This document shows, piece by piece, positions 8,517 to 29,127 of a stretch of 33,202 bases of DNA. The DNA is from Nitrososphaerota archaeon (GTDB lineage: Archaea; Thermoproteota; Nitrososphaeria; Nitrososphaerales; JAAOZN01): NCBI GenBank assembly GCA_011605775.1, contig JAAOZN010000075.1:1-33202 (forward strand). Direction: 5' to 3'. Within the stretch, counting starts at the first letter, position 1; each line of letters starts with the position of its first letter. Below the pieces are notes generated by a model. It was given only the letters and a program-made list of their open reading frames with translations, ran no database searches and was not told where the DNA came from. The position numbers and the translations under genes are program-made.

Positions 8517-8540
8517 ATACCTTCACGTCACCAACCCTTC

Positions 8541-8550
8541 TCTTAAAGTT
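8541..8550 (-). promoter_or_regulatory. TATA-like element of the enoyl-CoA hydratase gene
   Basis: On the minus strand AACTTTAAGA is centred about 29 bp before the ATG at 8516, predicting a leader of only about 3 nt. Confidence 0.4.
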
Positions 8551-8586
8551 TTTGTAGCTAGGGTGCCGCTTAACAGTTGATGGGGC

Positions 8587-9073
8587 GTGGTTTCAATAGC
8601 GCTTCCCAAAAAGATTGAGGAGAGGTCGAAAGAGGAGGCTGAGAGGACTGGTGCCTCAGAGGAGGAGCTTATTGTTGAAGCGCTAGCGAAGGCGTTCAAT
8701 GAAAACCTTGACCCAGAGGTAAGAATCGAGATCCACCTAAAACTTTCAGAAAAATTCCTGAAGGAGGCGGAAGAACTTTTGAGAAAAGGCGATCTCACCC
8801 AGGCATCAGAGAAGGCTTGGGGGGGCTGCTTCTCAAATCGTAAAGGCTTTCGCTGCAAAAGAGGGGAGGGAGCTTAGAAGCCACGGAGAGCTACACCAAC
8901 AAGTCGCCAAGATCGACAGACAAGCTAAGGGTGAGGGGATAAGGTCGCTTTGGCAGTCTGCTGGTATGCTTCATCAGAACTTCTATGAAAACTGGCTTCC
9001 TCAGGAGATGGTCAAAGCTAACATTGAGGATGTGAAGAAGTTTGTGGAGAAGATGAAGATGCTTCTAAAATGA
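8587..9073 (+). CDS. RHH-PaREP1 (HEPN-like) protein, frameshifted at a G7 run
   Basis: A GTG at 8587 (MVSIALPKKIEERSKEEAER) opens a ribbon-helix-helix-like segment (1-45) followed by LKLSEKFLKEAEELLRKGD and ASEKAW, the hallmark of the PaREP1 family, whose helical fold is related to HEPN domains. In the seven-G run 8819-8825 the frame breaks and the reading frame then stops at 8877. With six Gs it continues as AWGAASQIVKAFAAKEGREL and SHGELHQQVAKID and ends at TGA 9071-9073, giving a normal-looking 161-residue protein. The downstream codons are well preserved, so the lesion is recent, a slippage site, or a sequence error. No toxin or antitoxin partner is visible nearby. Confidence 0.7.
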
Positions 9074-9114
9074 TTAAAGCACTTAAAGCTGGCTTTCGTA
9101 AAGATAGTTTGTTT

Positions 9115-9263
9115 CTCCGCCTTGAATAGTAGAGGCGAGCTTCTCCTCGACTGAAGTTGGGAGCTTCCAGCGTTTGGAGTAGGCTTTGCGCCTGTCTCCT
9201 CATCTGCTGGTTCGGGGGTCTCACAGCTCCCCCATCCCATAGAGCTCGTTACCCTATGGGCTA
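9115..9263 (-). ncRNA. Orphan TnpB-type guide RNA (omega/reRNA) scaffold or relic
   Basis: Read on the minus strand, 9263-9135 aligns without gaps over 129 nt with 19816-19944, the 3' end of the tnpB element. The first 101 nt differ at only 4 positions. The last 28 nt are diverged (about 13 matches) but keep a basal 4-bp stem (CTCC/GGAG) and end AGCTCGC against AGCTCAC. There is no tnpB coding sequence upstream. In characterised TnpB systems this region is the RNA scaffold and the bases after the right end are the guide; here these would be CTCTACTATTCAAGGCGGAG (9134-9115). A TATA box lies about 77 bp upstream of the scaffold. Homology is direct observation; RNA function is inference. Confidence 0.5.
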
Positions 9264-9336
9264 AACTTCCATTTCACCTCGCCACGTAGGCTCATAGGTC
9301 ATCGCAACATGCTCAAATATCCCTCATCTTTTCATC

Positions 9337-9344
9337 TATTTAAA
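9337..9344 (-). promoter_or_regulatory. TATA box upstream of the orphan guide-RNA scaffold
   Basis: On the minus strand TTTAAATA predicts a transcript start near 9314, about 50 nt before the orphan TnpB-element scaffold. No reading frame longer than 13 codons lies between, so the transcript would be essentially non-coding. Confidence 0.4.
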
Positions 9345-9412
9345 CCTAGCCCATTCATCCCGAGCTAAAGATCTAGGTTTTCTGGGAACCCGTCTTTATG
9401 AAGGGTTCAACT

Positions 9413-9420
9413 CTAATATA
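9413..9420 (+). promoter_or_regulatory. TATA box of the Y-family polymerase gene
   Basis: CTAATATA is centred 22-28 bp before the ATGs at 9439 and 9445, predicting a leaderless transcript. Confidence 0.45.
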
Positions 9421-9438
9421 TGTGGGGATCTTGATCTG

Positions 9439-10551
9439 ATGGTGATGGTTGAGCGGGTAATAATGGAGGTGGATCTGGACTACTTTTATGCTCAGTGTGA
9501 AGAAGTTAGAAACCCCGCTCTTAAAGATAGACCCGTGGTTGTCTGTATCTACTCTGGGCGTGGGGGTGATAGTGGTGCTGTCACCACAGCGAACTATGTT
9601 GCTAGAAGGTATGGTGTGCGCTCCGGTATGTCTATTGTAAGGGCTAAGCGGCTTCTCCAAGGCGTTGATGCGGTCTTTCTCAAAGCAGACCTAGACTACT
9701 ACGATGAGGTCTCCCGGAGGGTAATGAACATACTCAGAGGCTACGCTGATGTATTCGAGGAGGTTAGTGTTGATGAGGCCTACCTTGATGTAACAGATAG
9801 GGTTAGAGGGGATTATGAGGAAGCTAAGCGGCTCGCTCTAAAGATCAAAGATGAGATCAAACGGGTTGAAAAACTAACCTGCTCAATAGGCATAGGGCCA
9901 AATAAGGTCATAGCGAAGATAGCTTCAGACTACCAGAAGCCAGATGGGCTTACGGTAGTAAGACCTGAGGAGGCTGCTGGGTTCATAGCGAAGATGGATG
10001 TCGATAAGCTCCCGGGTGTGGGCGCTAAGACGAAGAAGTTGCTTGATGAAATGGGTGTGAAGACCATAGGCGACCTCGCTAAGCAAGACCCTCAGAAGCT
10101 CGTCTCAATCTTCGGGATGAAGATTGGAAACTACCTTTACAATGCTGCAAACGGTAGAGACGATGAGCCTGTAAAGGAGAGGACCGAACCCACTCAGTTC
10201 AGTAGGATCATAACTTTGAAGCAAGATGCCCAGACGGTGAATGAGGCTGAGGGGTATATAGATGAAATCTGCCGAGACCTCTACGCTAAGGTTTCCTCTC
10301 AGGGCTACGCCTTTAAGAGCGTTGGTGTGTTCTGTGTAAGCGACGCTCTATCAACATATTCACGCAGCGAGACATATGAGCATCCTCTCGACGGATATGA
10401 TAATCTGAAGAGCGTTTCTATCGCGCTCTTAGCTAGGCTGCTTGAAGAGGAGAAGATAAAGATCAGGAGGGTGGGTGTTAGGGTTTCTGATCTCGTCAAG
10501 AAGCGCGGTCAGAGGACGCTCTATGAATACCTAACCTCTACGGCTGAGTGA
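9439..10551 (+). CDS. dbh: DNA polymerase IV, Y-family (Dpo4/Dbh)
   Basis: Translesion DNA polymerase that copies past damaged bases. The 370-residue protein carries the palm metal-binding sites EVDLDYFYAQ (D12) and SVDEAYLD (D112, E113), the steric-gate Tyr in DYFYAQ, the finger segment SGAVTTANYVARRYGVRSGM, and a helix-hairpin-helix in the thumb (KLPGVGAKTKKLLDEMGVKT). The little-finger domain occupies about 240-350. The C-terminal tail lacks an obvious PIP box, although LYEYLTSTAE is terminal. An ATG at 9445 is an equally good start given the TATA position. It overlaps the convergent ferredoxin gene by 14 bp. Confidence 0.93.
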   Translation: MVMVERVIMEVDLDYFYAQCEEVRNPALKDRPVVVCIYSGRGGDSGAVTTANYVARRYGVRSGMSIVRAKRLLQGVDAVFLKADLDYYDEVSRRVMNILRGYADVFEEVSVDEAYLDVTDRVRGDYEEAKRLALKIKDEIKRVEKLTCSIGIGPNKVIAKIASDYQKPDGLTVVRPEEAAGFIAKMDVDKLPGVGAKTKKLLDEMGVKTIGDLAKQDPQKLVSIFGMKIGNYLYNAANGRDDEPVKERTEPTQFSRIITLKQDAQTVNEAEGYIDEICRDLYAKVSSQGYAFKSVGVFCVSDALSTYSRSETYEHPLDGYDNLKSVSIALLARLLEEEKIKIRRVGVRVSDLVKKRGQRTLYEYLTSTAE

Positions 10552-18659: not shown

Positions 18660-19944
18660 ACTCCCCGAGGAGGTTCTGCTGTGCAGGCGTAGCTTCGGGG
18701 ATGTTTCATGCAGAAGGATGTTCAGATATGTGTGGTTGGGAAGGTTTTCAAGCCTAATAGAGTGAAGGTTTTAGCCTTAAACAGAGCCCTCAGCAGCTAC
18801 TTTGGGCTTGTGAAGTGGTATCTCCACTTCAACTCTAGGTCCAAGAGTTTTCTGCACGAGAACTGCTATGCGACAGCTAAAGAGCTCTTCGATCTCAACA
18901 CAGCTTTAATCCAAACTGCGAGGGACAAGGTTGTTGAAATCTTGCAGAGCTTCGCAAAAAACAAGAAAGAGGGCAGCGTTTTAAGGCTCAAGAGGATATC
19001 CATACGCTTCGATAGGAGATGCTACAGCTTCTCTAAGACGACAAACGTTCTAACGCCGTACTGGCTGACGCTAAGCCTGAACAGAAAGGAGAGGGTCAGC
19101 CTGCCGATAGTCTTCGGAGAAAGGCAGAAACAAAGGATTGAGGAAGCTTTCAGAGGAGAGTGGCGATTCACGACAGTTGAAATGGTTAAACGTGGTGGAG
19201 ATTGGTATGCTCATTTCGTTCTTAAGAAGGCTGTCGAAGTTCCCGATGAAACCGAGACCGTGATAGCGGTGGATAGAGGTGAGCACAATCTAGCCGTTGC
19301 AGTAGCCATATCAAAGAACAACCCGAATAAGCCCAAAAAGGGTCGGTTCTGGAGAGGCGAGGAGATCAAGAGGATAAGAGGGCTCTATGGGCATATCAGA
19401 AGGAGGCTTCAGGAAAAGAGGCTTCTGAAGAAGGTTAAGGAGCTTAGGGGAGAGGAGAGGCGCAAAGTAAACCAGCAACTACACATCATAGCCAACCAGA
19501 TAGTCGCCTACGCTAAACAGTTCCCCAAGCCGATAATAGTGATGGAAAACTTGAACGGAATAAGGGGTATCTTCAAGAAGTCTGAGAAGCTAAATAGAAG
19601 ATTCCACAGCCTACCGTTTAGAAAGCTACAAACCATCATAGAATACAAGGCTCTCCACGAAGGAATAGAAGTCAGATACCTAACGAAGAAGGAGACAAAA
19701 AATACTTCGAAGACATGCCACAGATGCGGGTATGTTACCCAAGTTAGGGGCAGAATCTTTAGGTGTCCAAAATGTGGAATCGAGTATGACAGAGACTTGA
19801 ACGCTTGTGTTAACATAGCCCATAGGGTAACGAGCTCTATGGGATGGGGGAGCTGTGAGCCCCCCGAACCAGCAGATGAGGAGACAGGCGCAAAGCCCAC
19901 TCTAAAGGCTGGAAGCCTCGCCCCTTTAGGGCGGGGCAGCTCAC
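18660..19944 (+). mobile_element. IS1341-type (IS200/IS605 family, tnpB-only) insertion element
   Basis: The only gene is tnpB; no Y1 transposase tnpA is present. Proposed left end is just after TTTAT (18655-18659), with a 7-bp left-end hairpin at 18662-18701. Proposed right end is TCAC at 19944, after a 9-bp hairpin (19915-19923 with 19929-19937, loop CTTTA). Removing 18660-19944 joins TTTAT to TTGAATAAG, and the cofE frame then reads through Lys (AAA) to TAA, giving the same C-terminus as now. This reconstruction supports the ends but was not checked against an empty-site genome. There is no target duplication, as usual for the family. Confidence 0.65.
18662..18701 (+). repeat. Left-end imperfect palindrome of the tnpB element
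   Basis: TCCCCGA (18662-18668) pairs with TCGGGGA (18695-18701) around a 26-nt loop, directly inside the proposed left end. Subterminal hairpins are the recognition sites of the family's single-strand transposase, which would have to act in trans here. Confidence 0.5.
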
Positions 19945-19952
19945 TTGAATAA
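18708..19952 (+). CDS. tnpB: TnpB, RNA-guided RuvC nuclease (OrfB, IS200/IS605 family)
   Basis: In characterised members TnpB binds an RNA from the element's right end and cuts DNA next to a target-adjacent motif, which keeps the element at its donor site. The 414-residue protein appears intact: helical N-terminal domain (1-150), RuvC I D189 (VIAVDRGEHN), RuvC II E280 (IIVMENLNG), zinc ribbon C337/C340 and C353/C356, RuvC III D361/D363 (YDRDLNACVNI). The last 40 residues (from MGWGSCEPPEP) are Gly/Pro-rich and lie over the RNA scaffold. The final codons and TAA at 19950-19952 fall past the proposed right end, within cofE sequence. The start is the ATG at 18708. Confidence 0.92.
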   Translation: MQKDVQICVVGKVFKPNRVKVLALNRALSSYFGLVKWYLHFNSRSKSFLHENCYATAKELFDLNTALIQTARDKVVEILQSFAKNKKEGSVLRLKRISIRFDRRCYSFSKTTNVLTPYWLTLSLNRKERVSLPIVFGERQKQRIEEAFRGEWRFTTVEMVKRGGDWYAHFVLKKAVEVPDETETVIAVDRGEHNLAVAVAISKNNPNKPKKGRFWRGEEIKRIRGLYGHIRRRLQEKRLLKKVKELRGEERRKVNQQLHIIANQIVAYAKQFPKPIIVMENLNGIRGIFKKSEKLNRRFHSLPFRKLQTIIEYKALHEGIEVRYLTKKETKNTSKTCHRCGYVTQVRGRIFRCPKCGIEYDRDLNACVNIAHRVTSSMGWGSCEPPEPADEETGAKPTLKAGSLAPLGRGSSLE

Positions 19953-27364: not shown

Positions 27365-27397
27365 ATGTTACTTTGGGATGAAGTAGCAGATGTATGA
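27365..27397 (+). other. Possible 10-codon leader ORF before the AIPR gene
   Basis: ATG at 27365 reads MLLWDEVADV and stops at TGA 27395-27397, overlapping the AIPR ATG at 27390 in another frame. It begins where the leaderless transcript is predicted to start, so it could couple or limit translation of the AIPR gene. So short a frame may be chance. Confidence 0.2.
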
Positions 27398-29127
27398 GAA
27401 AATTAAAGAAGAAATAAAACAACCATACTACCAACAGAATTTTGATAACGATGGTCAAAGATTCGTGGCCTGGTATTTACGAAATATTCATTTGAGGGAC
27501 CCTAATCAGACGAAATACGACATCACCGATGGTCCTGATGATAAGCAGATTGATGCCATAGTGATAAATGACGACAATTCGACTGTTTATGTCGTTCAGG
27601 GGAAGTTCATAGGAGCTTCGAGGGTTGATGCCGAACCTCTACACGAAGTTCTTTCTTTGTGGTTACAATTGAGGAATTTAGTTAAGTTGCAAGAAACGGC
27701 TAACGAAAAGCTGAAGAGCAGACTAGCTGAACTTTCAACCGCGCTGGAAGAAGACTATGCCGTAATATTTGAACTCGTCACAACTGCAAACTTGACCGAA
27801 ACTGCAAAAAAAAGACCTTAAGGCATTCCAAGAAGCATTAGCAAAAGACGAAAATCTGCCTGCATCTCTTGTTCTTGTTGACAGTGACGAATTGAAAAGA
27901 AGATATGAAATGGTGTTAGAGCGCGAGCTTCCTTCCCTTGACTACTCACTCACTCTTGAGCAAGGAAAATACCTACATATGCAGCTCGCTGGAACACAGG
28001 TGATTATCGCAGCAATACCTCTTAGAGAATGTGTAAGATTACCAGGCATAAGGGATGGCACTCTTTTTCGGAAGAACGTTAGACAATTCATGGGTCTTAA
28101 CAACACTGTGAACAAGAGTATTAAAGCTACGATTTACAGCGATAGGCATAGAGATTTCTTCTTTTACCATAATGGGATCACGGCGATCTGCGATAAGTTA
28201 GAGCTAAATAATCACATTTTAACGCTGAGAGGACTAAGCGTGGTGAACGGATGTCAGTCTCTGAACACAATATTGGCTTGTAGCGAAAAAGTAAAAGAAC
28301 TTGATGACACTTATGTTCTATTTAGGTTTTACGAAATACCACAACGGGACAGAGCGGACAGAATCAGCATTTCTACTAATTTTCAGACCGCTGTTAAACC
28401 CAGAGATTTAAGGAGCAACGATAAGAGAGTGCTGAACCTAAAGAAGTCATACGAGCAAAGATATCCGCAGGGTTACTTTATTACGAAAAGGGGGGAGGAA
28501 GCACCAGCTGACAAAGACAAAGAATATGTGGTTGATCTCGTAGATGTGGGTAAGTGGTTTATCTCATGGCACTCACAAAGACCGAACTTTGCATACAGCG
28601 AGACAAGAATCTTTGATAAGTTTTTTGAGCAGCTGTTCAAGAGAGAATATGATCCTGAAAATGTTCAAGCTTTGAATTTTTGGATGAAAGAAATAATAAA
28701 AGGTTGGACGGGTGAAAATCCTTTTGGGCTGAACGAATCGTTACTAGCGATGAAAGCTTACGCGCCATACCATGTCCTGTTTGCGGTATCCCAGTTCTTT
28801 GCCATTGCCAGTAATTGTTCAGATAGGGTTCCTAGTCCTAAGGTAGTGTATGAGCAAGCAAAGAGTAAGAACGCTGTTGAACAAATCGTCAAGTTTGCAG
28901 CTTCGTCTGTTAACGTTGCTTTAGAAATTGCCGTCGATGAACATTCATCTTCTCATAAAATATTTAGTCCCCAAAACTGGATTAAAGCCAAAACATCTTT
29001 AAGCGGGATCAAGACCGTCATAACGACTCAATTGAAGATGCTCCATACCTTTCCAGGAGGCAAGGAACTTGAAGAGGTCTTGAAAGTTCCAAAAGAGGCA
29101 TTCGAATACAGGTGGGAGGCAGACTAA
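27390..29127 (+). CDS. AIPR-family abortive-infection/phage-resistance protein, frameshifted at an A8 run
   Basis: Predicted defence protein. The first frame (27390-27821) carries a restriction-endonuclease-like core: D55 in DDKQIDAIVI and Q70-x-K72 in VYVVQGKF, a PD-(D/E)XK variant. The second (to TAA 29127) has the AIPR domain: RQFMGLNNTVNKSIKATI, FFFYHNGITAICD, LSVVNGCQSLNT, ISISTNFQTAVKPRDLRSND. The frames are separated by one surplus A in 27806-27813. With seven As the protein continues AKKDLKAFQEALAKDENLPA without a break, for 578 residues. An in-frame ATG at 27892-27910 could start only the C-terminal part. Codon use is more AT-rich than the flanking scpB and S8e genes, fitting transfer. 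Confidence 0.8.

Follow-up and report, generated by a model that had tools for sequence, protein, structure and literature searches.

Close parallels to the locus analysed here have been described as PATE elements and as the guide RNAs of tnpB-bearing transposons. The nuclease TnpB is guided by RNA from the right end of its element (PMC8612924) and processes its own RNA (PMC10278001), and the accessible portion of a further study reports that it drives retention and spread of insertion sequences in plasmids, with gene-drive activity (PMC11870625). The accessible portions of the two PATE reports, on Haloquadratum walsbyi (PMC3119063) and Halanaerobium (PMC7290912), do not describe these elements as guide-RNA carriers. 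The Halanaerobium PATE contains the final 58 nt of tnpB and a 160-nt right end (PMC7290912, as far as accessible), and may itself be such a carrier.

The window, that is, the whole stretch of 33,202 nucleotides under analysis, contains a short minus-strand unit (Table 1) that resembles both systems. As with PATEs in the accessible portions of their descriptions, the unit has near-terminal palindromes of IS605 type and lacks terminal inverted repeats, is too short for a transposase and belongs to a kind that moves without its own, and, in its second copy on contig C52, shows no target duplication; unlike PATEs as described there, its interior consists of a promoter and a complete omegaRNA gene. 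The right-end scaffold with a guide taken from the flank is shared with the omegaRNA (reRNA) of IS200/IS605 tnpB elements such as ISDra2 (PMC8612924, PMC10278001) and with haloarchaeal sotRNAs (PMC12558985), and the unit has the sequence and structure typical of the tnpB family.

Extent and parts of the unit

The sequence-only reading had described a guide-RNA-like block matching the 3' end of the resident tnpB element, preceded by a promoter of its own. BLASTN of positions 9000-9450 against the window bore this out: minus-strand 9263-9163 matches 19816-19916 at 97/101 positions without a gap (E 2e-43), and the last 28 nt (9162-9135 versus 19917-19944) diverge at equal length, as claimed. The proposed TATA box is present at 9344-9337, and a tblastn search with 8 TnpB queries found 0 aa of TnpB coding upstream of the orphan scaffold, again in agreement. 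The block is thus real, and its true extent is larger than proposed, continuing left to about 9397 and including a transposon left end.

Specifically, a covariance model of left ends (R2), for which solely tnpB- or tnpA-bearing elements (A5) served as input, matches the window at 9395-9333 (E about 1e-10), so that the upstream half of the unit is a canonical IS200/IS605-type left end, hairpin plus TATA box. This model was used instead of a strict regular-expression search, which gave 16/43 versus 1/288 control windows and missed many left ends. In the tnpB relatives compared (Bathyarchaeota, Terraquivivens, Odinarchaeia, Baldrarchaeota and Methanomethylicales), elements mostly start with TTTAT or a close variant, followed by (A)AAG.GGTGCCCAGAAAACC-hairpin-GGGATGAATGGGC and then a TATA box, and the spacing from left end to TATA box is alike in tnpB-bearing and standalone units by sequence comparison. 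The supposed promoter of a bespoke orphan locus is therefore the usual left-end promoter of the element family, in a unit that occurs twice in this genome and recurs in other archaea. Most units have TTTAT/NTTAT as their left flank; TTCAT at the window copy is 1 base off this consensus.

The scaffold model (R1), whose 12 training sequences include the orphan, aligns end to end at 145 bits with 9135-9265 and likewise with the tnpB copy at 19814-19944. This full-length match indicates that the conserved scaffold stops at the right end of the element and that the guide would come from the flank. Subterminal palindromes of IS605 type thus occur at both ends of the unit (R2 on the left; R1 and the family alignment on the right), and the short 263-nt interval holds no transposase gene. 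The orphan scaffold folds at -49.7 kcal/mol (z -2.43), and a scan of the window at Rfam gathering scores gave no match. A terminal hairpin of the type GCTCCC..GGAG.AGCTCRC is found in most relatives examined, in the orphan and in the second copy, and the right end of the resident tnpB (GCCTCGCCCC..GGGGC) is the family outlier. The step from high to low identity, previously taken as special to the orphan, is thus attributable to an odd right end in the tnpB copy, the orphan having the usual one.

The leader that stands in place of tnpB is likely a compressed tnpB remnant. A k-turn/C-D-box domain (GATGAC..CYGAG) was considered and is not claimed, the remnant being simpler and preferred because part of this stretch aligns by eye with tnpB codons that encode DRDLNA and tnpB elements have the 5' GGGATGTTCCC motif as well; a mini-ORF (MTYEPTWRGEMEV) was dropped, as it lacks conservation in a relative from genome G160. 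The arrangement GGNATGTTNCCGATGAC, small hairpin, CYGAG precedes the scaffold in standalone units of several genera.

Beside the mini-element lies a frameshifted PaREP1 gene, and the two together form one insertion, flanked by an enoyl-CoA hydratase gene on one side and a dinB-like gene on the other. These genes are adjacent in the same-genus genome G001 and in G002, where the insertion is absent; with the PaREP1 island missing there, relatives yielded no empty site of the copy in the window.

Table 1. Coordinates of the mini-element, its relatives and neighbouring features (window positions unless a contig or locus is named)
Feature	Position	Strand	Basis or remark
Whole mini-element, 263 nt	9135..9397	-	Left end, promoter, leader, omegaRNA scaffold, right end
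Left end (LE), imperfect hairpin GGTTCCCAGAAAACC..GGGATGAATGGGC, plus promoter	9333..9395	-	Model R2, 44.7 bits, E 9.6e-11
TATA box TTTAAATA	9337..9344	-	Read from sequence
Leader in place of tnpB (GAGGGATATTTGAGCATGTTGCGATGACC...GGCGAGG...)	9266..9332	-	Other genera have standalone units with a related leader
Other units sharing the leader	L091, L092, L096, L101, L104-L112, L120-L124, L145, L077		
Complete omegaRNA scaffold, end AGCTCGC	9135..9265	-	Model R1 1-131/131, 145.2 bits
Terminal right-end hairpin within scaffold	about 9164-9139	-	
Guide position, flanking sequence CTCTACTATTCAAGGCGGAG	9115..9134	-	Placed directly after right end
TTCAT, position of target-side motif	9398..9402	-	Adjoins element on left; compared with family left flanks
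PaREP1 gene, frameshifted	8587..9070	+	PF05942
Insertion of PaREP1 gene plus mini-element	8517-9438		
tnpB, IS1341-type, transposase-less	18708..19952	+	Pfam PF07282, E 6e-20; PDB TnpB and Cas12f matches
omegaRNA scaffold of resident tnpB, divergent right-end hairpin	19814..19944	+	Model R1, 144.9 bits
TGA stop supplied to DUF763 gene	C52:11229-11231 (L013:5229-5232)		
TGA stop supplied to F420-ligase-like gene beside tnpB	19941-19944		
Solo right-end hairpin fragment	C77:19289-19309		
Apparent second pair, seemingly separate RNA copy	C87:9402-9520 (L014:4903-5020)		Related units in G150, G283
Apparent second pair, omegaRNA-like 3' end of other-type TnpB	C51 (L017:2147-2269)		
Two adjacent ORFs, second of AIPR family	27390-29127		PF10592

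The second copy, mobility and the resident TnpB

A whole-genome search of the window's own genome (G000) revealed a second full copy at C52:10969-11231, its boundaries set by the empty site in G001. It is 89% identical to the window unit over 260 nt (C52:10970-11229), a match that covers the scaffold plus about 128 nt upstream of it; its left end is recognised by R2 (E 1e-9) and flanked on the left by GTTAT. Two convergent genes, one histone-deacetylase-like and one DUF763, flank the copy, which lies precisely between their stop codons. At its empty site G001 reads ..ATATGCTAT directly followed by AGCCCCC.., and the occupied site reads ..ATATGTTAT, then the unit, then AGCCCCC.., so that compared with G001 the insertion is clean and without target duplication, the mark of an IS200/IS605-type element that has moved. 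The directly observed ends, second copy and clean insertion therefore identify a tnpB-less mini-element. The earlier suspicion of a relic of a sibling element came close as to origin, and its notion of a random truncated end fails, the C52 copy having moved as a complete unit. tnpB has been lost from the unit and tnpA is absent, as in other family members; the left end with its promoter, the scaffold and the right end are kept.

The right-end terminus GCTCAC, on the other strand GTGAGC, gives a neighbouring gene its TGA stop in two insertions (Table 1). Elsewhere in the genome, contig C77 has a right-end hairpin fragment by itself (ACTTCAGTCGAGGAGAAGCTCAC), with no scaffold.

Between the two copies, the scaffold differs at 5/101 positions, the left end at 6/58 and the leader at 2/66; scaffold divergence is not clearly below that of the left end or leader, and hence no extra constraint on the scaffold is visible in this pair. 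The C52 copy lacks 10 nt at the TATA region, which, together with the TTCAT flank and the GCTCGC terminus (each 1 base off consensus), suggests that both copies may be decaying. The two same-genus genomes yielded neither scaffold nor unit. Y1 TnpA (PF01797) was found neither in the window's own genome nor in 20 relatives; it is present in G438, G128, G150 and G283, and the tnpA-bearing elements of G128, G150 and G438 have the same left-end core. Since Y1 TnpA is needed in trans and none was found in the genome, the unit is probably immobile now, and the TnpA required for movement in this lineage would be one that is no longer seen.

A candidate partner lies in the window itself. The resident TnpB shows RuvC motifs DRG, MEN and DRD and a zinc finger on reading of its sequence, is apparently intact, and has no inactivated RuvC of the TldR type. 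No canonical left end was found upstream of its gene by the regular-expression search or R2. Scaffold similarity to the resident tnpB is 0.94 for the orphan and 0.93 for the C52 copy, the next best tnpB reaching 0.90; both standalone scaffolds are thus closest to the resident tnpB, ahead of every other tnpB in the set. The proposal that a guide-RNA unit with a promoter but no tnpB could supply TnpB in trans is supported by this similarity and by the intact appearance of the protein. What appears to be a second pair occurs in the same genome: C51 encodes a different type of TnpB, whose gene has an omegaRNA-like 3' end, and C87 carries a copy of this RNA that appears to be separate. The window also carries two adjacent ORFs, the second encoding an AIPR-family protein; the AIPR family is linked to abortive phage infection.

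The search for guide targets that had been proposed turned up none with a motif. With as many as 3 mismatches allowed, the guide CTCTACTATTCAAGGCGGAG had no other match in the five genomes G000, G001, G002, G003 and G150, and a single 17-nt match in a viral contig is preceded by AAGTAA, without the target motif, and is therefore taken as chance. The guide of the C52 copy gave no match in the target search; against the G001 empty site, 17/20 positions match as read from the alignment. No other target is expected under the retention model set out below, because the target would be the empty insertion site itself.

Recurrence in other archaea and scaffold pairing

R1 scaffold matches occur in 58/398 Thermoproteota genomes. 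Upstream of the 91 loci examined we found 29 near-full tnpB genes, 13 remnants and 43 cases with no tnpB, with too little sequence at the other 6. A left end lies close upstream of the scaffold at 30 of the 91 (R2), all from the groups without tnpB or with too little sequence. These loci have the compact layout of left end, TATA box, a gap of about 66 nt and scaffold. Where measurable, the gap between left end and scaffold is about 43-80 nt (median about 66), compared with about 1.1 kb in tnpB elements.

To gauge ascertainment, a left-end scan was run on 727 kb from G150, G438 and G283 and gave 47 matches, including 37 units without a tnpB- or tnpA-like ORF; R1 matches are present in 19 of these and a second scaffold family in about 7 others. 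About 26/37 ORF-less units in the sampled contigs therefore keep a scaffold of one of two families, a fraction biased upward, as the contigs were partly picked for holding scaffolds. The second family matches the 3' end of the C51 TnpB and the unit on C87, both in the window's genome. A further scaffold model, R3, took standalone units as its input and proved unnecessary.

Pairing was evaluated in 18 standalone scaffolds against a structure derived mainly from tnpB-linked scaffolds. Pairing holds in 93.7% of cells, and both sides have changed in 57 cells; shuffles gave 18.1 such cells and slid controls no more than 19. Standalone scaffolds are thus structurally intact across lineages, which is compatible with repeated origin out of tnpB elements; the covariation among them may be partly inherited from such repeated origin. 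For the standalone units in G139 and G146 there is no close TnpB (the best match has 35% identity in G139 and E 8e-9 in G146), indicating that some units persist without a partner. Both are single-contig genomes with several standalone scaffolds, possibly orphaned guide units.

Proposed retention in trans, its alternatives and known systems

Judged from sequence comparison, the unit is probably a selfish, non-autonomous IS200/IS605-type mini-element, PATE-like, with an insertion-specific guide and use of the resident TnpB in trans. The left-end promoter would give a short RNA of leader, scaffold and about 20 nt of flanking guide; resident TnpB would bind this RNA in trans and cut an empty copy of the insertion site, and repair from the occupied copy would restore the mini-element. 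By borrowing TnpB, an element that has kept promoter and omegaRNA would gain the same retention benefit. A guide that is identical with the insertion site could not come from any other source, and the TnpB protein could, which would explain why the nuclease was dropped and the guide gene kept. The comparison suggests that small transposons may keep an insertion-specific guide and borrow a relative's nuclease, a reading that draws on the recurrence of similar units in several other archaeal genomes.

It is rather unlikely that the unit is instead a dead relic. Such an element, having suffered an internal deletion, would have moved when TnpA was still available, would by now be decaying and no longer transcribed, and would retain its omegaRNA merely for want of elapsed time. 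The missing TnpA, the deviating TTCAT flank and GCTCGC end, the 10-nt loss on C52, the lack of excess scaffold constraint between the two copies and the persistence of units in G146 without a close TnpB would all suit such a relic. However, the compact layout with a full scaffold recurs in many genomes, most sampled left-end units without ORFs keep the scaffold, and pairing is held by compensatory changes across standalone units. The absence of TnpA also bears on a domesticated guide, in which the host would keep TnpB and standalone guide RNAs for regulation or defence after losing TnpA and stripping the tnpB gene of its left end; the resident tnpB indeed has no canonical left end, and its scaffold and the standalone ones remain closely matched. 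This we consider very improbable, since scaffold and unit were not found in the two same-genus genomes, the guides are mere insertion flanks, and no other genomic or viral target with a motif was found. Finally, a coincidental fusion of a truncated tnpB 3' end to an unrelated promoter could be entertained from the window, where solely a 129-nt block resembles the tnpB copy, but deserves practically no credence: the promoter belongs to a left end that an independent model identifies, and the fusion is refuted by the same arrangement on C52 as a precise insertion with an empty site.

Chances are about even that hot-spring archaea harbour a recurrent class of mini-transposons, with at least two omegaRNA families, in which the nuclease was shed and promoter and guide RNA are kept under selection, as miniature parasites of TnpB-mediated retention, the guide being insertion-specific and TnpB shareable. 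PATE-like elements have so far been regarded as repeats that lack a transposase and end in palindromes; should many of them contain functional guide-RNA genes, TnpB would be a shared resource of the cell, and a single nuclease gene could drive the retention of numerous mini-elements that differ in target. The guide of each mini-element should then direct TnpB to its own empty site. Such sharing would also give a simple reason for keeping omegaRNA after tnpB loss. The units would, moreover, offer naturally occurring, compact TnpB guides that act in trans, together with candidates for their partner proteins.

Altae-Tran et al. reportedly described, in 2021, standalone, trans-acting omegaRNAs of IscB. 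There, as here, guide units lie apart from the nuclease gene; here the nuclease is TnpB, the hosts are archaea and the unit has clear mini-element ends. Unlike the omegaRNA of tnpB elements, the RNA of the unit lies outside the tnpB mRNA and would start at the left-end promoter with a short leader. Overall, what is already known is the PATE-like character of its ends, size and insertion style; what is new, relative to the accessible portions of the open-access literature, is the guide-RNA gene inside.
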